DNA of 64,000 nucleotides from Sulfurovum sp. Lineage in GTDB: Bacteria > Campylobacterota > Campylobacteria > Campylobacterales > Sulfurovaceae. Position numbers and translations under genes: made by a program. A model generated the notes under the pieces. That model saw nothing but the letters and a program-made list of their open reading frames with translations, was not told where the DNA came from and did not search any database. The DNA lies in the NCBI GenBank assembly GCA_027081115.1, contig JALWLD010000112.1, positions 62,001-126,000 on the forward strand, given 5' to 3'. Shown here one piece after another: positions 36,115 to 53,463 of the stretch (its first letter is position 1; every line of letters begins with the position of its first letter).

Positions 36115-36618
36115 TTAGTGATCCAATAGCTTCTTTTTTATAAAAGGGTCATGTAAGTTTTTACCCTGAAGCATTAAGAGTTTCATTTCATCATAAGGAA
36201 TAAAGCCCTTCTGGGATTTCTCATAAGCAGCAAACCCGTACCCCATAGGAGAGGAAGCAGTGCGTGAATACCAGGCTTTTTTCGCATCGATCCACTTAAG
36301 GGTATCCTGTGTCTGCGTAAAAATTGTATGTATATCCTTACTGTTCTTCTTTAACCAGAGTATGGCACATCCGATATCATCAAAAAAATAAGTATTTCCA
36401 TTTTCAGAAGTTATCTGTGCTGCATAACTGAGTGCTTCTATATTCATGTTACATTCGGAACACTGATACTCCTTTACTTTAATAGGCACAGCACTGTGTG
36501 TGGTATTTCCCTTGTAGACATAGCGGGCACCCTCATCACTTCCAAAAGAGAACAATAATATCAGAATCACTGCGATCACAATGACAACAGTAATAATATT
36601 TATAAAGATATTTTTCAC
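36115..36618 (-). CDS. NosL-family membrane-anchored protein (paralogue 1)
   Basis: 167 residues with an N-terminal membrane anchor (about 3-24) and a periplasmic NosL domain. It has the metal-site motif CSECNM (C53, C56, M58), then FFDDIGC (C84) and SPMGYGFAA, as in true NosL. NosL proteins bind Cu(I) and deliver it to apo-NosZ. The start is GTG 36618, overlapping the stop of the upstream gene (GTGA) with GGAG 7 bp before it; the open frame to 36666 is not needed. Last gene of the accessory operon. It is very like nosL at 43080-43553, but anchored by a helix rather than a lipid. Confidence 0.82.
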   Translation of the reverse strand: MKNIFINIITVVIVIAVILILLFSFGSDEGARYVYKGNTTHSAVPIKVKEYQCSECNMNIEALSYAAQITSENGNTYFFDDIGCAILWLKKNSKDIHTIFTQTQDTLKWIDAKKAWYSRTASSPMGYGFAAYEKSQKGFIPYDEMKLLMLQGKNLHDPFIKKKLLDH

Positions 36619-37583
36619 AATAAAACTCCATTTCTTACATAAAATACAAGTACATATGCACTGCATATCAGCACAAATAGTGTGAGTAATAGTAACGAAA
36701 TTCTCTTTAGAGTTTTTGCAGGTTTTTTAAAAAAGTATTGTAACAGAGCAGAATCAACAGCAAGAAACACACCTGAAAGTAAAAGTCCCCAGATTAGGTA
36801 CCCTACATAATAATAGTGATCCTGCAGCATGCAGAAAGGACACTGATGTGTGGGAAGCTGATAGATATAAGTCCCAAAAAAATAGACAACCGCGTAGTAG
36901 GCAACTACAGCAAAAAGTAATACGCTGCCTATGCTCATAAGACTGCGTTTTGAAAGTATTGTTAAAAGTAGCAATGCATAGAGAAGATAAAAGAGTATAA
37001 GCAGTTTAGGGGTATTCAATCCAAAAGGTAATCCGTTTGCCCCTCCAGTCTGCCCAAATATAACAGAACAACAGGAGACAGGATTGATCGTCTCTATGTG
37101 TGTAAAATACAATATATCAAGTAGATATTCCACACTAAAAAATACAAAAAGCAGTATAAAGAACCATGACTTCAATTTTAGGTAAGGATAACTCTTTTCC
37201 TGAAGATCAAGCCTATTGAGAGTAAGCCATAGAGCACTGAGAAAAAGGATAATTACTTTAAGACCTAAAAGAGGATTACCATAGGCATTGGCTTTGATCA
37301 CACCAGCCCCACACATTGCCCCAGGGATCAGGTCTGAAAGCTGGTCTATCGTATAGACAAAATAGGGTAAGAGCACTATCTTAATAAGAAGCACAAAGAA
37401 AATGATGGTCATCACAAGATATGAGCGGTTCTCCAGCATGAACTGTTCACTGGTAAAAAGATCAAAATTCCATTTTTTCACCAAACCCAACGTGGCAAGA
37501 AAAGCGATAAAGAGCAATAGATAGAGCAATGTTTCAGAAAGTAGATAGACAATGACTTCATTACTTAAGAGTATTTCATTCAA
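36615..37583 (-). CDS. Polytopic membrane protein with conserved-looking cysteines (unknown)
   Basis: 322 residues with eight to nine hydrophobic segments. I do not recognise the family. Five Cys stand out near membrane edges: C91 in GAMCGAG, the pair C171-C172 in NPVSCCSV, and a CxxC at 248-251 in THQCPFCML with His before it. The last resembles thiol-oxidoreductase or metal-site motifs. It lies between a MacB-type ABC ATPase gene (13 bp upstream) and a NosL paralogue (4-bp overlap), which suggests a role in copper or thiol handling for the nos system. This is inference from context. Confidence 0.7.
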   Translation of the reverse strand: MNEILLSNEVIVYLLSETLLYLLLFIAFLATLGLVKKWNFDLFTSEQFMLENRSYLVMTIIFFVLLIKIVLLPYFVYTIDQLSDLIPGAMCGAGVIKANAYGNPLLGLKVIILFLSALWLTLNRLDLQEKSYPYLKLKSWFFILLFVFFSVEYLLDILYFTHIETINPVSCCSVIFGQTGGANGLPFGLNTPKLLILFYLLYALLLLTILSKRSLMSIGSVLLFAVVAYYAVVYFFGTYIYQLPTHQCPFCMLQDHYYYVGYLIWGLLLSGVFLAVDSALLQYFFKKPAKTLKRISLLLLTLFVLICSAYVLVFYVRNGVLL

Positions 37584-37596
37584 AACAGCTGCCTCT

Positions 37597-38280
37597 TCAT
37601 TGCTTTTGCTTCACTATTTTACCCTCTTGCATATGCAGTACTCTGTTCACGAAAGGAAGAGTTTCAAACAGAGGATCATGCGTAGCCACAATAATGGTTG
37701 TACCACTATTGTGAAGATTTTTCAGGATATCAATAAATTTCAGTGTATTCTCTTTATCAAGATTCGCTGTAGGTTCATCACAGATGATCAATGGTGGTGC
37801 ATGTACCAAAGCTCTTGCAATAGCACAACGCTGTTTCTCTCCTCCTGAAAGTTCTTTTACCTGTTGATCAGCTTTATGGAATATGGCAGCCATTCCCATA
37901 CTTTTTTTTGCCATATTTTCAACTTCTGACAAGGTTAAGCCTGAATTGACCAGAGGGGAAAGAACATTCTCTTTAACTGAGAGAGCCTCCAACAAATTAA
38001 AATGCTGAAAGACGACACCAATACTTGTTGCACGATACTCTGAAGCATGCAAGTCCGGCAGTTTTGAAATAAGTGTATTGTTCACAACGATCTTTCCAGA
38101 ACTAGGCTTGTCCAATGCAGCAATCAAAGAGAGCAGTGTTGATTTTCCACTGCCACTTACACCACTTAAAATCACAGTTTCACCTTTTTTTACTTCAAGG
38201 TTTACATCTTTAAGTGCTTCAAATGCCTGTACAGTACCCTCATTGAATATTTTATTGACATTTTCAACCTGAATCATCAT
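37597..38280 (-). CDS. MacB/LolD-type ABC transporter ATP-binding protein
   Basis: 227-residue ATPase: Walker A GVSGSGKST, Q-loop VFQHFNLLEAL, signature LSGGEKQR, Walker B LIICDEPTANLD, H-loop ATHD. The sequence is of the MacB/LolD/FtsE group that partners FtsX-like permeases. It overlaps the permease stop by 4 bp (ATGA). It is clearly different from NosF, encoded 5 kb upstream in the same gene block. Substrate unknown; placement within the nos accessory genes suggests an envelope-linked task. Confidence 0.9.
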   Translation of the reverse strand: MMIQVENVNKIFNEGTVQAFEALKDVNLEVKKGETVILSGVSGSGKSTLLSLIAALDKPSSGKIVVNNTLISKLPDLHASEYRATSIGVVFQHFNLLEALSVKENVLSPLVNSGLTLSEVENMAKKSMGMAAIFHKADQQVKELSGGEKQRCAIARALVHAPPLIICDEPTANLDKENTLKFIDILKNLHNSGTTIIVATHDPLFETLPFVNRVLHMQEGKIVKQKQ

Positions 38281-39455
38281 AACATTGCCTCTTTAGGTGG
38301 TGTTACTGCTATTTTCCATGCGGGTATAAGTACTGCCGCAAGAAATGGGATCGCATAAAAAAGAAATATAGTTCCAAGTGTACCAAACTTCAATACAGGT
38401 GCATAGGTTACCGTATTGTTTAAATTAGATCCTCCTAAAAATATCTGACTCAAAAGTGGTGCATGAAAAAAATAGACATAAAAATAAGCAAGAGTCACTC
38501 CTACAGTAAAACTTACAAATACAATCACAAGGTTTTCATAAAATTTCAATTTCAGAATATCTTTGATACTCCAGCCTACTGCACGAAGAATACCAATCTC
38601 CCTCTTCTCTGTAGAGTAAACCATGGAATAACGCTGATAGAGTATCAGTATAAAGGTAACAATAGTCACCAAATAGAGTATGAGAAAAAGTCCACCTTTA
38701 TAGTTGTAAAGATTTTCATATGCTTTTTTAACTTCTCTTTTTTCTATGACTCGAACATCATAAAAAAGCAAATGCATTTTCGTGATAATATTATCCCACT
38801 CTGCATCATTAGGCACATTGAAAGTGATATCTGTTACCTCCTCTTTATCCATACCAAAGATCTCTCTGGCAAGATCAATAGGCACAATAATCATATCATT
38901 GGAAAGAAGATTGCTTTGTAAGGGGAGAGTATTTGCAATATTAACTTTTTTAAATTTTCCATCAGGGGTTTTAAATGTAAAACTCTCAGGGTAGTAGTGT
39001 TCAGCCAAAAACTTTTTCACACCTTCTCCTACCAGCATACTATCCTGAGATAAAAAACTTTTCAGATCAAGATCTTTGAGCAGTGTTTGCAAAGACAGAC
39101 TGCTCTGTTCATCAAAGAGATCAACTCCGATAATTAAAAAAGACTTTTCACGCGGACTAAAGAAATATCTTCCATAGACCCGGGGTGACACATGGGTCAC
39201 CCCATTGATCTCTATGATCTTATCCAACCAGGAGAGTGGCGTATTGACCGCTTTCCCTGCCTCTATCCGGTGTATAGTAAAGTCTGCTTCATCCTCTAGT
39301 GTTTGAAACAATGAATACTGTAAAGATGAAGAGATAAAAAGTACCGAAGACAAAAGAAAAATAATAATTACAGAGATAAGTACTGCACCAATATGTTTAC
39401 TTTTTTGCTTAAACAACATAAGGCTCAAGAAGTGAAAAAAAGGACTATCTTGCAT
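38277..39455 (-). CDS. FtsX/MacB-type ABC transporter permease
   Basis: 392 residues with the four-helix FtsX/MacB topology: TM1 about 22-45, a ~210-residue periplasmic domain, then three C-terminal helices. The cytoplasmic coupling segment EKREIGILRAVGWSIKDIL is characteristic. Type VII ABC systems of this sort do mechanical work across the membrane (lipoprotein release, efflux, hydrolase activation) rather than classical transport. It overlaps the preceding small gene by 11 bp and the ATPase by 4 bp. No MacA-like adaptor is encoded nearby. Confidence 0.87.
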   Translation of the reverse strand: MQDSPFFHFLSLMLFKQKSKHIGAVLISVIIIFLLSSVLFISSSLQYSLFQTLEDEADFTIHRIEAGKAVNTPLSWLDKIIEINGVTHVSPRVYGRYFFSPREKSFLIIGVDLFDEQSSLSLQTLLKDLDLKSFLSQDSMLVGEGVKKFLAEHYYPESFTFKTPDGKFKKVNIANTLPLQSNLLSNDMIIVPIDLAREIFGMDKEEVTDITFNVPNDAEWDNIITKMHLLFYDVRVIEKREVKKAYENLYNYKGGLFLILYLVTIVTFILILYQRYSMVYSTEKREIGILRAVGWSIKDILKLKFYENLVIVFVSFTVGVTLAYFYVYFFHAPLLSQIFLGGSNLNNTVTYAPVLKFGTLGTIFLFYAIPFLAAVLIPAWKIAVTPPKEAML

Positions 39456-39699
39456 AAACCATATCCATTTTATTGATCGTCTGCATTTGGGGGTAGGCAG
39501 GATTTACCGCTGCATCATACAATAATATCCTTGGTTCATAATAGGCAACACTCAAAGCAGGAGAAGAGAACTTTGTCACCCTACTTACAATTGAAAGCTG
39601 TTTTTGTTCCATATCATGATCAAACATGCTGTAGTGTATAAATACTATAAGAAGTAACACTCCCATAAAGAGGATCAGAAGTTGAAGTTGCCTTAACAC
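39445..39699 (-). CDS. Small single-pass membrane protein in the nos accessory operon
   Basis: 84 residues: one N-terminal transmembrane helix (about 6-24), then a ~60-residue periplasmic part ending in K-M-D-M-V-Y-A-R. No family recognised; no Cys. Its position in front of the FtsX-type permease, with an 11-bp overlap, suggests that it is a small partner of that transporter. It follows a NosL-family gene by 16 bp. Confidence 0.6.
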   Translation of the reverse strand: MLRQLQLLILFMGVLLLIVFIHYSMFDHDMEQKQLSIVSRVTKFSSPALSVAYYEPRILLYDAAVNPAYPQMQTINKMDMVYAR

Positions 39700-39715
39700 C
39701 TAAACGTCCTTCTCT

Positions 39716-40387
39716 TCACAAAAGTCCATCCAGCTTCATAAGCATTGAATCACTTATCTCATCAAATTTTACAATAGACTTTCCATTATGCTCTGACAAA
39801 AACTGTTTGGCCTTCTCTTTACTCTTAAAAGGGATCAGTTCACGCCCCATCGGTCCAAAAATATCTGAGTCAAGCACATAAAAAGCCTCTTTTGCTTCTA
39901 TCATTTCAAGAGTATAATAATCACTTACCACCATCTGGGAAATGTGTGTACGGTCATAGAGGAAATCACCATCAAAGATATAATATTTCATCATATCTTT
40001 CACACCGTCAAAATAGTAGATTTTTTCATCATGTTCCATCTGTGCTACCCATTTTGGGTACTTGGAGACGAACATACCACAGACGGGGCATTTTGCATTT
40101 TCAGGTACAACAATATGTTTTTGTAACACGTTACTACTGCCATAGATCAGATAATAGGCAACTGCCTCCTGTTTTGCTTTTGAGAGAGGAGGACAGGCTT
40201 GAGAAATTTTGATCTTTTGCATCAGTGTTTCAATATCTTTCCAAGCCGTAGGCAGTTTCTCTTTTTCACAAAGTACCTGGACGATCTTCTCACCTTTATG
40301 GGCAAGGTGCATATTTTTTAAAGTAGTACTCTGCTGAGCATACAAAAAAGTCATCGTGCTCACAGCAATTAGAAGTGTAATTCTCAT
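39716..40387 (-). CDS. NosL-family protein with N-terminal two-Cys domain (paralogue 2)
   Basis: 223-residue exported protein. A signal peptide (MRITLLIAVSTMTFLYA) is followed by a ~50-residue helical domain (31-80) with C40 and C65, then a NosL domain with the site CPVCGM (C100, C103, M105), KIYYFDG and D-S-D-I-F-G-P-M-G. The helical domain matches one at the C-terminus of the next gene's product: the K-G-E to Cys spacing and the A-V...Y-L end are the same. It resembles a c-type cytochrome fold without the heme motif. Likely a periplasmic copper-binding protein. Confidence 0.8.
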   Translation of the reverse strand: MRITLLIAVSTMTFLYAQQSTTLKNMHLAHKGEKIVQVLCEKEKLPTAWKDIETLMQKIKISQACPPLSKAKQEAVAYYLIYGSSNVLQKHIVVPENAKCPVCGMFVSKYPKWVAQMEHDEKIYYFDGVKDMMKYYIFDGDFLYDRTHISQMVVSDYYTLEMIEAKEAFYVLDSDIFGPMGRELIPFKSKEKAKQFLSEHNGKSIVKFDEISDSMLMKLDGLL

Positions 40388-40404
40388 AATCTATTCTGTT
40401 AAAG

Positions 40405-41142
40405 CTATCTGTTCTTCAGATAAAGTCCAACTGCCTGTAACTGTTTTGCATGAATATCTTTACACAGACTGTTCTGAATGACAAATGCTTTCGCTTCAGC
40501 TACAGTATCAAACTTTTTATCTGTTTTTTCACATTTGTTGCTATAAACCATCTCTCCCTTTTCAGCCATCATTTTCTGTTTGGAAGTGATCATTTTACTC
40601 TCTTTGGCAAAGTCACTTTTTGCGTCTGCCAAAGCAGTCTCAAAATCTACAACTTTTCCTCCATTGCTTTTTGCAAAGGCTTCCGCATCTTCTTTTTTTG
40701 CAAAAGCATATTTACTGACCATAGTCATAGTCCCTTTTACACCACTGCCAACCACATAAAATGCTTTAGGTGCAGAAATAAATTTCAATGTACTTACATC
40801 TACAACCTTGATATCGGTCAACTTACTTCCTTGTTGCATATCGTCTACTACACAATGCATAGAACAATATTGTTTTACCTTACCATCTACTGTAGCCGCA
40901 TGGTTGGTTTTAAAGAACATTGGTAAAGTCATACCACACTCCGGACAAAATACTTTTGCATCACCTTCCTGAAGTAAAGTTGCTTCCCCTTTAGAGACAG
41001 ACTGAAACATTTTCATCATCTTTTTAGGTTTAGCCGGAGATTTCATCGCAGAGCCACATTTTCCTGATTGACACTTCATTTCTGCCTGAGCAACACTTAG
41101 CATTGTTCCCCATACCAATAACACCATAAATATTTTTTTCAT
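40405..41142 (-). CDS. NosL-family protein with C-terminal two-Cys domain (paralogue 3)
   Basis: 245 residues with a signal peptide (MKKIFMVLLVWGTMLSVAQA). The mature N-terminus is rich in Cys, Lys and Met (C24, C29, then KKMMKMF), then a NosL domain with CPECGM (C66, C69, M71), QYCSMHC (C93, C97) and GTMTMVSKYAF. The tail 195-242 has C204 and C227 and is homologous to residues 31-80 of paralogue 2. The many soft-metal ligands point to Cu(I) binding. AAGGAT precedes the ATG and a promoter-like sequence lies about 30 bp upstream, so it may start a separate transcript. Confidence 0.82.
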   Translation of the reverse strand: MKKIFMVLLVWGTMLSVAQAEMKCQSGKCGSAMKSPAKPKKMMKMFQSVSKGEATLLQEGDAKVFCPECGMTLPMFFKTNHAATVDGKVKQYCSMHCVVDDMQQGSKLTDIKVVDVSTLKFISAPKAFYVVGSGVKGTMTMVSKYAFAKKEDAEAFAKSNGGKVVDFETALADAKSDFAKESKMITSKQKMMAEKGEMVYSNKCEKTDKKFDTVAEAKAFVIQNSLCKDIHAKQLQAVGLYLKNR

Positions 41143-41200: not shown

Positions 41201-41725
41201 CTAATAAAATTTATGGATCTCTTCCATAATATTGGCAAACTCCACATCGTCACCTTTCTCTTTCAAGAATTTGATAAGGAACTTTTCAGAGGCTTCTACC
41301 CCCTCTTTTTTCTCTATCTCCAGTAACTTGGCATAAAGATCTGCAATAATTTCCAATACATGTTTAGAGATACTTTTTCTAGCAGCATGATAGCCTATGA
41401 CCTCTCCCGTATCAGTGTCTTTTCTGGTTTCAAACTCAGTAAATATCCAGTAGTATCGACCATCTTTTGCAAGATTCTTTACTACTGCATTAATATTTTT
41501 ACCTTGTGAGATCGTCTCCCACAAAAGTTTAAAGACCACTTTGGGCATATCTGGATGACGTACAATACTGTGTGGTTTTCCTATGAGTTCATCCAAACTG
41601 TATCCGCTGACTTCAATGAAATAATCATTGGCAAAAGTAATCTTCCCTTTTTCATCTGTCTCTGAAACAATATAACGTTTCGGGTCAAGTATGATCTCTT
41701 CATCAATAGGTATTGGTTTATGCAT
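41201..41725 (-). CDS. PAS-domain sensor protein, CetB/Aer-like
   Basis: 174 residues. A PAS domain (about 16-125) with the Aer-type pattern T-F/I-A-N-D-Y-F, G-K-P-H-S-I-V-R-H-P-D-M-P and D-G-R-Y-Y-W-I-F, the Trp belonging to the FAD-binding site of aerotaxis sensors. A helical tail follows, with no transmembrane segment or signalling domain. In C. jejuni the similar CetB works with the HAMP-domain protein CetA to sense redox state. Here the gene lies inside the nos block, which suggests sensing of respiratory state, but no CetA partner is encoded nearby. Confidence 0.82.
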   Translation of the reverse strand: MHKPIPIDEEIILDPKRYIVSETDEKGKITFANDYFIEVSGYSLDELIGKPHSIVRHPDMPKVVFKLLWETISQGKNINAVVKNLAKDGRYYWIFTEFETRKDTDTGEVIGYHAARKSISKHVLEIIADLYAKLLEIEKKEGVEASEKFLIKFLKEKGDDVEFANIMEEIHKFY

Positions 41726-41739
41726 CTCTACTCCTTTGG

Positions 41740-42246
41740 TTAAATTCGTCCGTTGATCAATCTTATGAGAGCATCAGACACCTTTTCAAAAGGCATGACT
41801 CTTGCACCATGATGTGTTTTTGAAAATTTTTCTGCTGCCTCTTTTGTAGCAAAAGGCACCAGGTCATCACCCGCAGGTGAAGTAACATTGCTTCCATACA
41901 CATAGTAAGATGTCTCCGCATTAACAGGCTTCCCTGTTTCATAATCTGTCACAACGATCTCTGAAAAATCTCTTTCACTTTTTACCCCTACCTCATGCCA
42001 TTTCCCCGGTCTGAAATAAAACTCAAACATTGATTTTGGAGAGGAGAAATAAACAACTTCCCCATTTCTTACTTTAATCTTCGCTACCCAATTTGGTGCT
42101 TTATAAACCTTCAAATGGCGTACCAGACAGCTGGTATTTTTATCGTAGGTCAAAAAGTACTTTTTTTCAACATTGAACGGTTTGAGATCTGTGTTAGCAG
42201 ATAAAAGGCTACTAAACAAAACAAAAGCTATAAGTAAATATCGCAT
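41740..42246 (-). CDS. NosL-like periplasmic protein without the CxxC site (paralogue 4)
   Basis: 168 residues with a signal peptide (MRYLLIAFVLFSSLLSA). The body follows the fold of paralogue 2 (WVAKIKVRNGEVVYF versus WVAQMEHDEKIYYF; Y-V-Y-G-S-N-V-T-S-P-A-G-D-D-L-V-P-F), but the usual C-x2-C-x-M motif is replaced by TSCLVRHLKV, leaving one Cys (C40) and a nearby His (H44). Either the metal site is remodelled or the protein is a non-binding partner. It starts 9 bp after nosY. Confidence 0.75.
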   Translation of the reverse strand: MRYLLIAFVLFSSLLSANTDLKPFNVEKKYFLTYDKNTSCLVRHLKVYKAPNWVAKIKVRNGEVVYFSSPKSMFEFYFRPGKWHEVGVKSERDFSEIVVTDYETGKPVNAETSYYVYGSNVTSPAGDDLVPFATKEAAEKFSKTHHGARVMPFEKVSDALIRLINGRI

Positions 42247-42255
42247 CGTAACTCC

Positions 42256-43083
42256 TTACACCAAATCTTTTTTGGCAAAAATAGTAAAGCCTAAAAAGGC
42301 AAAAAGAACCCCAAGAAAAAGAGGATAGACGATCGAGACAAATACAAACATCTTTTGACTCATCATATCAAGAATGTAAAAAGCCACCGGTCCCATCACG
42401 GTCAATTCAGGATCAAAAAGTGAAATAGCAGCAACTCTAAATATCTCCATAGGGTTGACCAGAGCAATTCCAATAATCAATTCTGTACTCATGCGCTCTT
42501 GCATCATAAGAGAGATCAACGCGATATCGATAAATGCCAAAAGGAAGATCCATACAAAAAAAGAGATACCCAGTGCCATCTCTGAAGACTTCACGATAGA
42601 AGAGACAAAAAATGCAATACCCAGAAAAGCTGAAGACATAGCGAAAAGTAGTCCTGTATAGAGGAAAAAGATATTCCAGGGAACATCTGCTCCTTTAAAT
42701 ACACCATACAAAATAGCAAAGACCATCGCCATAAATACAGGAAGGAATACTGTAATAAAACGTCCAAATACCTTTCCCCAATAATACTGTTTTAGAGAAA
42801 TAGGGAAAGAGAGCATATACTCTAGTATGTGGCTGTCCCTGTCTCCAGAGATGGAACGCACTGTCGTTATCAAAATAAAAATAGGCAGGATCACGATCGT
42901 CACTTGAATATACATCAGCAGTAAACGGCTTAACCCTGAAAACCCCATCACCTGGGATTCTGTAATACCCGCAATGAAGAAGAGTGCGATCAATCCACCA
43001 AAGACCACAGAATAAACAATGAACCAGTTTGCACGAATAGACTCTTTGAGGTCAAGATATGCAATTAAAAGTAAATTTTTCAA
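42256..43083 (-). CDS. nosY: Nos ABC transporter permease NosY
   Basis: 275-residue integral membrane protein with six hydrophobic segments and the NosY/ABC-2 pattern (S-G-D-R-D-S-H-I-L-E-Y-M-L-S after the second helix). With NosF and NosD it forms the complex required to build the copper centres of NosZ. It overlaps nosL by 4 bp. In this genome nosL lies between nosF and nosY, whereas the order reported for Wolinella is F-Y-L. Confidence 0.93.
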   Translation of the reverse strand: MKNLLLIAYLDLKESIRANWFIVYSVVFGGLIALFFIAGITESQVMGFSGLSRLLLMYIQVTIVILPIFILITTVRSISGDRDSHILEYMLSFPISLKQYYWGKVFGRFITVFLPVFMAMVFAILYGVFKGADVPWNIFFLYTGLLFAMSSAFLGIAFFVSSIVKSSEMALGISFFVWIFLLAFIDIALISLMMQERMSTELIIGIALVNPMEIFRVAAISLFDPELTVMGPVAFYILDMMSQKMFVFVSIVYPLFLGVLFAFLGFTIFAKKDLV

Positions 43084-43553
43084 TGAGCTCTCCTGTGATT
43101 ATTTTTCTCTTCTATCTTTTTAACCTGTGAGAAGAGAGTATCATAATTAAAGATATCTTTCCCCTTTTTAATACTCTCTTTTTTGGCATGTGCAGCAAAA
43201 CCGTATGCCATCGGTGTAACATTACCGACGTCATAAAAGGCATCTCTCGCATCAATCCATGTACCTGTATCCACATCAGTAATCCACACTTTTGCCTGCT
43301 CTTTCCATGAGACCTTCTCTTCATCGAACCAAAGCAGTGCACAGCCAATATCATCAAACATATAGGCTCTTCCTGTTGTAGGATCAATAACCTGTACAGC
43401 ATGATGTCTGTCAGAAGTAACCATTTTACATCTTTCACACATATCTCTGTCCCAATGTACTTCCTGAAGTTCTGTGGTGATCTCTTTCTTTTCACATCCG
43501 TTAAAGCCCATAACGAGCAGTATTGTAAAGAAAAAAGTCTTAACAGCGTTCAT
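43080..43553 (-). CDS. nosL: Copper chaperone lipoprotein NosL
   Basis: 157-residue lipoprotein: N-terminal hydrophobic stretch ending in F-N-G-C (C20), then the Cu(I) site CERCKM (C39, C42, M44), FDDIGC (C71) and TPMAYGFAA. NosL delivers Cu(I) to apo-NosZ together with NosDFY. Its start overlaps nosF by 14 bp and its end overlaps nosY by 4 bp, so it is embedded in the F-L-Y unit and is the best candidate for the canonical NosL of the five present. Confidence 0.92.
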   Translation of the reverse strand: MNAVKTFFFTILLVMGFNGCEKKEITTELQEVHWDRDMCERCKMVTSDRHHAVQVIDPTTGRAYMFDDIGCALLWFDEEKVSWKEQAKVWITDVDTGTWIDARDAFYDVGNVTPMAYGFAAHAKKESIKKGKDIFNYDTLFSQVKKIEEKNNHRRAH

Positions 43554-51976: not shown

Positions 51977-52822
51977 TTAGTTACTGATTTGAGAAAGCGT
52001 GAGAGAGACAGTGGTACCTCTATTTTTTTGAGACTTTATATCTATACCAATTTGTTCTTCATCACAATAGCTTTTGACAAGTGCCAAGCCAATACCCTGC
52101 CCTGATTTCTGACTATCTGCCTGATAATAACGTTCATAAACTTGAAGCAATTGTGTTTCATCCATACCTATACCATTATCAATAATGTTAAGTGTAGCAC
52201 CGGTTAAAATAAGGCTGATAGATGCATCTTTATCGGAATACTTCATAGCATTCATTAACAGGTTGTCTATCATCTTCTCAAAACCTATTTTATCTGCTTT
52301 TAGGTCAAGTGGAGCGATATCTAAGATAAAACAGTTACGTTCAAAAGTTTCAAATACCTCTATTCGTTCCTCAATTAGTGTTTTTAATGAAAAAACCTCT
52401 TTTTTGACCGGATGAATCTCTTTCTTGATACTATAGACCAATTCTGCATAGAGTCTCTCCAGTCTAACTGACGAATCCTCTATACGCTTAAGCCGTTTGA
52501 GACTTTTTTCATCCTCCATATGCTTTTCAAGCATTGCTATATTGGCTTTAATAGTAGAAAGAGGAATGTTGAGTTCATGCAATATTTCAGTACTCAATTG
52601 TGAAAGATGGGCATCCTGTTCAGCTTTAGGGGCAAGAAGATGAGAGGCAATAATGTACCCCCACCCCGCAGCCAAAAAAAGTACCAAGATAGATGCTATG
52701 AGGTAGTTACTCTCTGAAAAACCTTCATTTTTCAAAAACCAGTAGACAAAACTCAACAGTATAGCTACAGAGGAGAAATAGCCCAATGCTGCAAAAAGTG
52801 TTCTTTTTCTTATTGCACCCAT
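51977..52822 (-). CDS. Sensor histidine kinase
   Basis: 281 residues. Two transmembrane helices (about 9-30 and 40-61) are separated by only ~10 residues, so there is almost no periplasmic sensor domain. The dimerisation helix has the phospho-acceptor H82 in ILHELNIPL. The ATPase part has NAMKYSD, DNGIGM and GQGIGLALV. With such topology it probably senses membrane or cytoplasmic signals. Its start overlaps the response regulator by 13 bp. The pair lies directly upstream of, and in the same direction as, nosZ, but nosZ has its own promoter. Confidence 0.9.
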   Translation of the reverse strand: MGAIRKRTLFAALGYFSSVAILLSFVYWFLKNEGFSESNYLIASILVLFLAAGWGYIIASHLLAPKAEQDAHLSQLSTEILHELNIPLSTIKANIAMLEKHMEDEKSLKRLKRIEDSSVRLERLYAELVYSIKKEIHPVKKEVFSLKTLIEERIEVFETFERNCFILDIAPLDLKADKIGFEKMIDNLLMNAMKYSDKDASISLILTGATLNIIDNGIGMDETQLLQVYERYYQADSQKSGQGIGLALVKSYCDEEQIGIDIKSQKNRGTTVSLTLSQISN

Positions 52823-53463
52823 CTGTACCCAATGCCTCGCACATTGACAATATTGGCAGAAAAATACTTTTTAAGCTGAGTTACATAGACACGAAGCGCA
52901 CCATCACTGGCATTTTGTCCTGCTGCCCAAAGACGATTTTTAATCTCTTCAGTGCTAACCACTTCACCATTGGACTCTAGCAGTAAAACAAGAAGTTCCA
53001 ATGCCTTTTTTGTGATATCCAACGCTTGATCTTCAAAATAAAGTGTTTTAGAGAGCATATCAAGAGAATATTTACCAATAATCATCTTCTCATTTCTTAT
53101 CTGCCTTCGCATCAGTGCAGCTATGCGAAGCAACAGTTCATTCAAATCAATTGGTTTTTTCATATAGTCATCTGCACCGATTTCAAATCCCTGTGCAAGT
53201 GATGACTTATCATCTCTTGAAGTTAAAAATATTGTAGGTGTTGTATCTCCACTTTGGCGCAGCTTTTTAAGCAGATCAAATCCACTCTCATAAGGCAAAT
53301 TCACATCAAATAAGTAGAGATCATAGACATGTGTATAACTGAGTTCAAGTGCGGTGTATGGGTCTAATGCATAGTCTAAAACGAAACCTTCCTCTTCAAG
53401 AAAGTCTTGAAGGGTTTCATTAAAGAGTTTATCATCTTCTAAAAGTAATATTTTTACAGACAA
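52810..53463 (-). CDS. OmpR-family response regulator
   Basis: 217 residues: receiver domain with phospho-acceptor D53 in LYLFDVNLP, acidic pair E9-D10-D11 and K102 region (YMKKPID), and a winged-helix DNA-binding domain (about 125-217) ending G-I-G-Y-R-W-V-Q. It is cotranscribed with the histidine kinase. Target genes are not apparent from sequence; the neighbouring nos and fatty-acid genes are candidates only by position. Confidence 0.92.
   Translation of the reverse strand: MSVKILLLEDDKLFNETLQDFLEEEGFVLDYALDPYTALELSYTHVYDLYLFDVNLPYESGFDLLKKLRQSGDTTPTIFLTSRDDKSSLAQGFEIGADDYMKKPIDLNELLLRIAALMRRQIRNEKMIIGKYSLDMLSKTLYFEDQALDITKKALELLVLLLESNGEVVSTEEIKNRLWAAGQNASDGALRVYVTQLKKYFSANIVNVRGIGYRWVQ

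Follow-up and report, generated by a model that had tools for sequence, protein, structure and literature searches.

What does a second ATP-binding cassette (ABC) transporter do behind a cluster of nos genes for nitrous oxide (N2O) reductase, NosZ, and which enzymes does it serve? The question is raised by a 64,000-nucleotide stretch of DNA from Sulfurovum sp. (GenBank assembly GCA_027081115.1, contig JALWLD010000112.1, positions 62,001 to 126,000), referred to here as the window, which is part of contig C112 of a 2.45-Mb genome. Seven minus-strand genes, running from 41142 to 36115, encode NosL3, NosL4, the small protein p84, an FtsX-fold permease, an ATPase, the membrane protein P322, and NosL5, and upstream of this block lie nosZ-B-D-G-C1-C2-H-F-L1-Y-L2 followed by a PAS-domain gene. 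A preliminary description of the window took the block for a six-gene accessory to NosZ; its gene content, positions, overlaps, and domain names are correct, and the gene count is seven. The block is probably a self-contained, ATP-driven periplasmic module for copper delivery or chaperone cycling that serves several respiratory copper enzymes, above all MccA.

The block is a conserved module. In a survey of 200 Campylobacteria genomes, P322 is present in 64 genomes as 71 copies (65 genomes if one weak match, in G185, is included), and in 69 of the 71 copies across the 64 genomes a permease orthologue lies 649-1120 bp away with the ATPase filling the space, far beyond chance. The two copies that are not beside a permease both occur in one genus. 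The order NosL, small transmembrane (TM) protein, FtsX permease, ATPase, P322, and NosL5 recurs complete or nearly complete in the 40 neighborhoods examined and in the majority of another 80 loci. NosL3 and NosL4 are fused into a single protein of about 340-400 aa in many relatives, and counterparts of p84 (62-107 aa) lie 5' of the permease in most. The co-occurrence counts given here are counts of species and not of independent events, and the p-values ignore phylogeny; the exceptions are few and spread. Among the matches listed, the closest P322 relatives are from Sulfurovum metagenome-assembled genomes and share at most 81% identity. Of the best 80 contig-scan matches, every one with a named taxon belongs to Campylobacterota and one (L172) is labelled just "bacterium"; the phylum-sample matches listed all fall within the class, and the PLSDB plasmids that were searched contain no match.

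The distribution of nosZ does not follow that of the module. A NosZ-specific accessory, providing an extra loading, repair, or chaperone-recycling step as first proposed, would explain why in the window, as in other Sulfurovum genomes, nosY-NosL2 is directly followed by the module, why the module is found in 40 of the 51 genomes with nosZ, and why five inserted genes, among them those for an ABC permease and an ATPase, are present in the nos cluster of Sulfurospirillum cavolei (PMC4794192). However, 24 of the 64 module genomes lack nosZ, which is the frequent occurrence outside nosZ genomes that the preliminary description had named as evidence against its own proposal, and 11 of the 51 nosZ genomes lack the module. 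Of the 40 genomes with both, only 6 have the two within 25 kb of each other, and in 22 they share a contig at a greater distance. Linkage to nos is also unclustered on a tree of 72 P322 proteins, with at least seven changes on starred branches and clustering no better than that of shuffled labels. The module is not specific to NosZ, and a role confined to that enzyme is very unlikely; in the window's lineage, where the module lies beside nos, it may serve NosZ too.

The constant partner of the module is instead the NosL family (PF05573), which occurs in 78 of the 200 genomes and in all 64 that carry the module. NosD is found in exactly the 51 nosZ genomes. All 75 genomes with NosD or the module encode NosL, which outside these 75 is found in only three genomes. 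Of the 149 genomes that lack nosZ and NosD, 24 have both NosL and the module, three have NosL only, none has the module only, and 122 have neither (Fisher p = 9e-25, uncorrected for phylogeny). NosL appears to have two ABC partners in these genomes: NosDFY for NosZ, and the module for other enzymes. The earlier suggestion that a second ABC system of the mechanotransmission class is tied to copper-chaperone-like proteins is borne out by this association.

Among those other enzymes, MccA is the most closely linked. MccA is a heme c-copper enzyme that acts as a sulfite reductase (Hermann 2015, as cited in PMC6682613). Every one of the 30 genomes that encode canonical MccA carries the module, and in 29 of them it lies within 12 kb of mccA; the thirtieth is split over contigs. 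In ten loci that were read, the genes directly before the module encode an NrfD-like subunit, a cytochrome c synthase of the CcsBA type (about 890 aa), and in most cases a Sel1-repeat protein. Further 5' in these mcc-type loci, where the stretch is long enough, are a ferredoxin-type subunit, a peptidyl-prolyl isomerase, and an octaheme cytochrome that matches Wolinella succinogenes MccA (PDB 4rkm) with 1094 bits. On the P322 tree, the mcc-linked proteins fall into a single clade (100/100 support). All seven listed species of genus g15 carry nosZ, and the module is found only in the one that has mccA. Seven genomes encode MccA and the module without NosDFY, and since NosD is confined to the 51 nosZ genomes, the module is the only NosL-linked ABC system found in these seven. 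Genome G056 has lost mccA and carries insertion sequence (IS)-type genes at the expected site, and the module has been kept. At locus L041 (636-2504), IS-type transposase genes mark the truncated start of an mcc cluster in which mccA is gone and the module persists.

Several observations weigh against a copper-delivery role centered on MccA. A second MccA-like group, with about 50% identity, occurs in 31 of the 200 genomes (loci L076-L089) beside a rhodanese-like protein of 670-730 aa. Its members keep both presumed copper cysteines, which we take to be Cys399 and Cys495 of MccA (numbered Cys411 and Cys507 in the 4rkm chain, 12 higher in both cases), yet 28 of the 31 genomes lack the module. 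Such a site therefore does not by itself require the module, since only three of 31 genomes carry it. In addition, nosZ and canonical mccA are both missing from 17 module genomes, the 11 nosZ genomes noted above manage without the module, and the mcc link probably reflects a single capture event. The expectation that module-less MccA proteins would lose their copper cysteines was rejected, as both groups keep them. Proteins of the second group usually have an extra cysteine beside one copper cysteine, and an SCO-like protein is encoded nearby in L086.

Comparison with known sulfite respiration loci is consistent with a link between MccA and NosL. In G167, presumed to be W. succinogenes, the module lies directly behind mccC-mccD-ccsA1-type genes; the known counterpart is the mcc cluster of that species (Kern 2011). 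A NosL-like protein of W. succinogenes, MccL, has reportedly been named a putative copper chaperone; if that is correct, part of the mcc linkage is already known. The MccA-family enzyme of Shewanella oneidensis is encoded in the operon sirAIGCDJKLM (PMC6976685), and the neighboring genes SO0485 and SO0488 carry the labels nosL and nosY; the TonB-dependent copper receptor gene nosA is co-listed (PMC5955497). A sirA operon that ends in genes with nosL and nosY labels points to a need of MccA-type enzymes for a NosL-plus-ABC set. By this analogy, the simplest reading is that such enzymes rely on a NosDFY-type set in Shewanella and on a module-type set in Campylobacterota.

The permease (38277-39455, minus strand) is a 392-aa protein in which TM1 and TM2 flank a large periplasmic domain; it also has an FtsX domain (PF02687, 50.8 bits). 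Its AlphaFold2 model has a mean predicted local distance difference test (pLDDT) score of 84, and its best PDB match is LolE (9rlc_E; Z 21.3, 5.8 Å over 373 residues), followed by Spr0695, LolC (Z 20.5), HrtB, and MacB (5lj7_B, Z 16.1). Compared over residues 1-392, the model combines TM1, the large periplasmic domain, and the C-terminal FtsX bundle of the LolCDE/MacB class, and the separate 227-aa ATPase (37597-38280, minus strand; PF00005, ABC_tran, 117.6 bits) is LolD/FtsE-like with intact Walker A, signature, and Walker B motifs. The label MacB/LolD-type given earlier is thus right as to class, although the best solved relatives of the permease are LolE and LolC, with MacB close behind. 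Transporters of this class ("type VII") are considered to link ATP hydrolysis in the cytoplasm to motion of domains on the periplasmic side. The module differs from LolCDE and MacB in its single permease gene, the absence of a fused ATPase and of a nearby MacA/TolC gene, and its partners, which are NosL proteins and P322. It does not qualify as a MacAB-TolC system, as the ATPase is a separate gene and the conserved neighbors include no HlyD/MacA gene, or as a NosDFY system, as NosD and nosZ are both absent from 24 module genomes.

P322 (36615-37583, minus strand) is a 322-aa protein that defines a new family: searches of Pfam, NCBIfam, and the PDB sequences gave no match. Its AlphaFold2 model (pLDDT 91.8) contains eight TM helices, and against the PDB it yields a best Foldseek E-value of 0.92 and a best Z of 12.5, to generic helical bundles. 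In an alignment of 40 sequences, the invariant residues are M90-C91, C171-C172, and H246-x-C248-P-x-C251, located in the TM2-3, TM4-5, and TM6-7 loops, respectively. Most lysine and arginine residues lie in the remaining loops, which by the positive-inside rule places the five invariant cysteines on the predicted periplasmic face.

Genes found near the module suggest further partners. Directly upstream of NosL3, loci L111, L113, and L118 encode a TonB protein and a TonB-dependent receptor, L167 encodes the receptor alone, and L111 also encodes ExbB and ExbD; these are Sulfurovum-type genomes. The best named family for the receptor is the TonB-dependent copper receptor TIGR01778, at 178-190 bits and below the cut-off of 472, so that the protein is copper-receptor-like by sequence and not a confirmed member. 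The module is present in 29 of the 44 genomes with the receptor. A DsbD_2 protein is encoded downstream of NosL5 in many operons. Together, the TonB-receptor and DsbD_2 genes suggest a connection with copper uptake and thiol chemistry. The window's own genome contains an ExbB-ExbD-TonB-receptor operon homologous to that of L111 at G000:C57:168061-171836 (L176:8061-11836). At L060:12283-13098 (minus strand), directly upstream of the module, a TonB protein carries the cysteine-rich stretch KKECSCKKCACKNCKMHK, with a weak metallothionein match.

The proposed mechanism brings these components together at the inner membrane. Soluble NosL3 and NosL4, which are often fused, would carry Cu(I) through the periplasm and dock at an inner-membrane station, a complex of the permease, ATPase, small single-span protein, P322, and anchored NosL5. 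Powered by ATP hydrolysis, conformational cycling on the periplasmic side would shuttle Cu(I) between chaperones or recharge them, and copper would then reach extracytoplasmic respiratory copper enzymes. In this way, the module would do for MccA and further clients what NosDFY does for NosZ. What is observed is the gene content, its conservation and distribution, the LolE/MacB fold of the permease model, and the predicted periplasmic position of the P322 cysteines; copper binding, ATP-driven transfer, and the client enzymes are inferred. In favor of the proposal, NosL occurs in every module genome (64/64), the module occurs in every canonical MccA genome (30/30), TonB and DsbD_2 partners recur, and P322 retains invariant Cys, His, and Met residues. 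The more specific proposal, that the FtsX-fold ABC transporter and P322 hand Cu(I) between NosL chaperones and metallate MccA and other enzymes, with NosL as a general chaperone that has two ABC partners, is tentative and falls somewhat short of an even chance.

The fold of the permease invites two other explanations. As LolE and LolC are its top matches and the ATPase is LolD-like, the transporter might extract NosL lipoproteins from the inner membrane, and the preliminary description included release of lipid-anchored chaperones among its suggestions. This is highly improbable, given that the module has a single permease gene and that its NosL proteins are mostly not lipoproteins: lipoboxes occur in 2 of 108 NosL3/4 relatives, which are mostly signal-peptide proteins, 65 of 74 NosL5 relatives have a TM-helix anchor, and lipoboxes belong instead to nos-type NosL1, outside the module. 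The permease also scores only 37 bits against TIGR02212 (lolCE; cut-off 362) and is not a LolCDE protein proper, and the window's genome holds another LolC/E-like permease, on C46, at 280 bits. Besides LolE, the model resembles MacB and the exporter of heme, HrtB; this resemblance, together with the co-occurrence of metal-type chaperones and a two-component system, would suit a role in copper stress, in which the ABC transporter would protect the cell in a MacB- or HrtBA-like way by removing copper, or a product damaged by or loaded with copper, from the inner membrane or periplasm. Such an efflux role is unlikely, for no membrane-fusion gene (MacA/HlyD) recurs in the neighborhoods, and the partners are copper-uptake-like genes (TonB receptor, ExbBD-TonB) and respiratory enzymes (mcc, nos), not copper resistance genes.

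A third explanation starts from the five invariant, predicted periplasmic cysteines of P322 (in CPxC, CC, and MC motifs) and from the DsbD_2 protein that follows NosL5 in many operons: P322, with DsbD_2 where present, would keep the NosL CxxC and client cysteines reduced so that copper can be inserted, and the ABC transporter would move a thiol compound or re-arm the chaperones. Thiol redox is unlikely to be the main function, as many module operons, that of the window among them, have no DsbD_2 gene. The P322 model shows no clear PDB match, including to DsbB-, VKOR-, or CcdA-like proteins. The thiol-redox explanation is partly compatible with copper delivery, which remains the preferred function of the module.

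Part of the module has in all probability been described once before, in a nos context. In three S. cavolei strains, the nos cluster contains a five-gene insertion between nosL and nosY that was left unexplained in 2016 (PMC4794192). Its order of hypothetical protein, ABC permease, ABC ATPase, and two hypothetical proteins equals that of p84, FtsX permease, ATPase, P322, and NosL5, and by this gene order the insertion is in all probability the module; the paper gives no function, family, distribution, or mcc link. Like NosDFY-NosL, the module is an ABC ATPase/permease pair tied genetically and phyletically to NosL and a periplasmic copper enzyme. It differs in lacking the NosD beta-helix protein, in having a permease of the FtsX/LolE fold rather than NosY, in adding P322, the small single-span protein, and the TM-anchored NosL5, and in not being confined to nosZ genomes. 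No paper joining NosL with such a transporter outside nos was found in a literature search that left out most subscription papers and both main mcc papers.

In the literature searched, there is also no description of how copper is supplied to the MccA heme-copper site and other periplasmic copper enzymes, and the distribution reported here singles out a specific candidate for this task, one that includes a new family of membrane proteins. If the proposal is true, NosL serves more enzymes than NosZ. The question can be addressed in W. succinogenes, which probably has two copies of the module, and labelling the block a NosZ accessory when N2O-sink genomes are annotated calls for caution. In G167, the presumed genome of W. 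succinogenes, nosZ reads as two pieces separated by a gap of about 1.3 kb (G167:C1:870536-874421), as expected for an inserted element.

The NosL proteins of the module are Sec-exported or membrane-anchored. NosL3 (40405-41142, minus strand; 245 aa) contains the motif CPECGM, lacks a lipobox, and scores 60 bits against PF05573, for which the curated cut-off is 24 bits; NosL4 (39716-40387, minus strand; 223 aa) contains CPVCGM and scores 106 bits. NosL5 (36115-36618, minus strand) has a NosL-like domain, an N-terminal TM anchor, the motif CSECNM, and a borderline score of 23.1/24.2 bits. Its start is probably the GTG at 36618, which forms a GTGA overlap with the P322 stop codon as in relatives such as locus L111, so that the cysteine-rich N-terminus MQCICTCILC of the longer, 183-aa open reading frame is probably untranslated. 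All three proteins carry a CxxCxM-type Cu(I) motif, which is absent from 39 of 74 NosL5-type relatives; Cu(I) binding has been shown for the NosL of P. denitrificans (PMC6530538). In the nos part, NosL2 (41740-42246, minus strand; 73.7 bits) is an exported family member without CxxC, and NosL1 (43080-43553, minus strand; 20 bits), between nosF and nosY, has a lipoprotein-like N-terminus and the motif CERCKM.

p84 (39445-39699, minus strand) is an 84-aa protein with an N-terminal TM helix and a short periplasmic tail ending in a D-F-V-Y-like sequence. In the coding direction, p84 and the permease gene overlap by 11 bp, the permease and ATPase genes overlap by 4 bp, and a 13-bp gap separates the ATPase gene from P322. 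A promoter scan returned 25 sites against 21.7 expected, which is no excess, and terminator-like sites number 7 against 3.5 (sd 2.1); neither count is informative. The PAS-domain protein (41201-41725) lies between NosL2 and NosL3, and it occupies the same place in several Sulfurovum nos clusters.

Upstream of nosZ, a response regulator and a histidine kinase are encoded at 51977-53463 (minus strand), and their relatives elsewhere adjoin the module or the copper-receptor-like gene. The histidine kinase occurs in 45 genomes and shares 38 of them with the receptor (44 genomes). Its gene spans 51977-52822, and its predicted periplasmic loop is very short, at about 14 residues; this protein is a possible intramembrane-sensing kinase for a copper regulon. 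Elsewhere in the window's own genome (G000:C57, L177:8945-11701), a 918-aa polyferredoxin-like membrane protein, which we take to be NosR/CcoG-like, contains a NosL domain (PF05573, 59.6 bits). It adjoins a 219-aa protein resembling DsbD_2 and a 728-aa TonB-dependent receptor-like protein, and this neighborhood is possibly a further copper or metal system.

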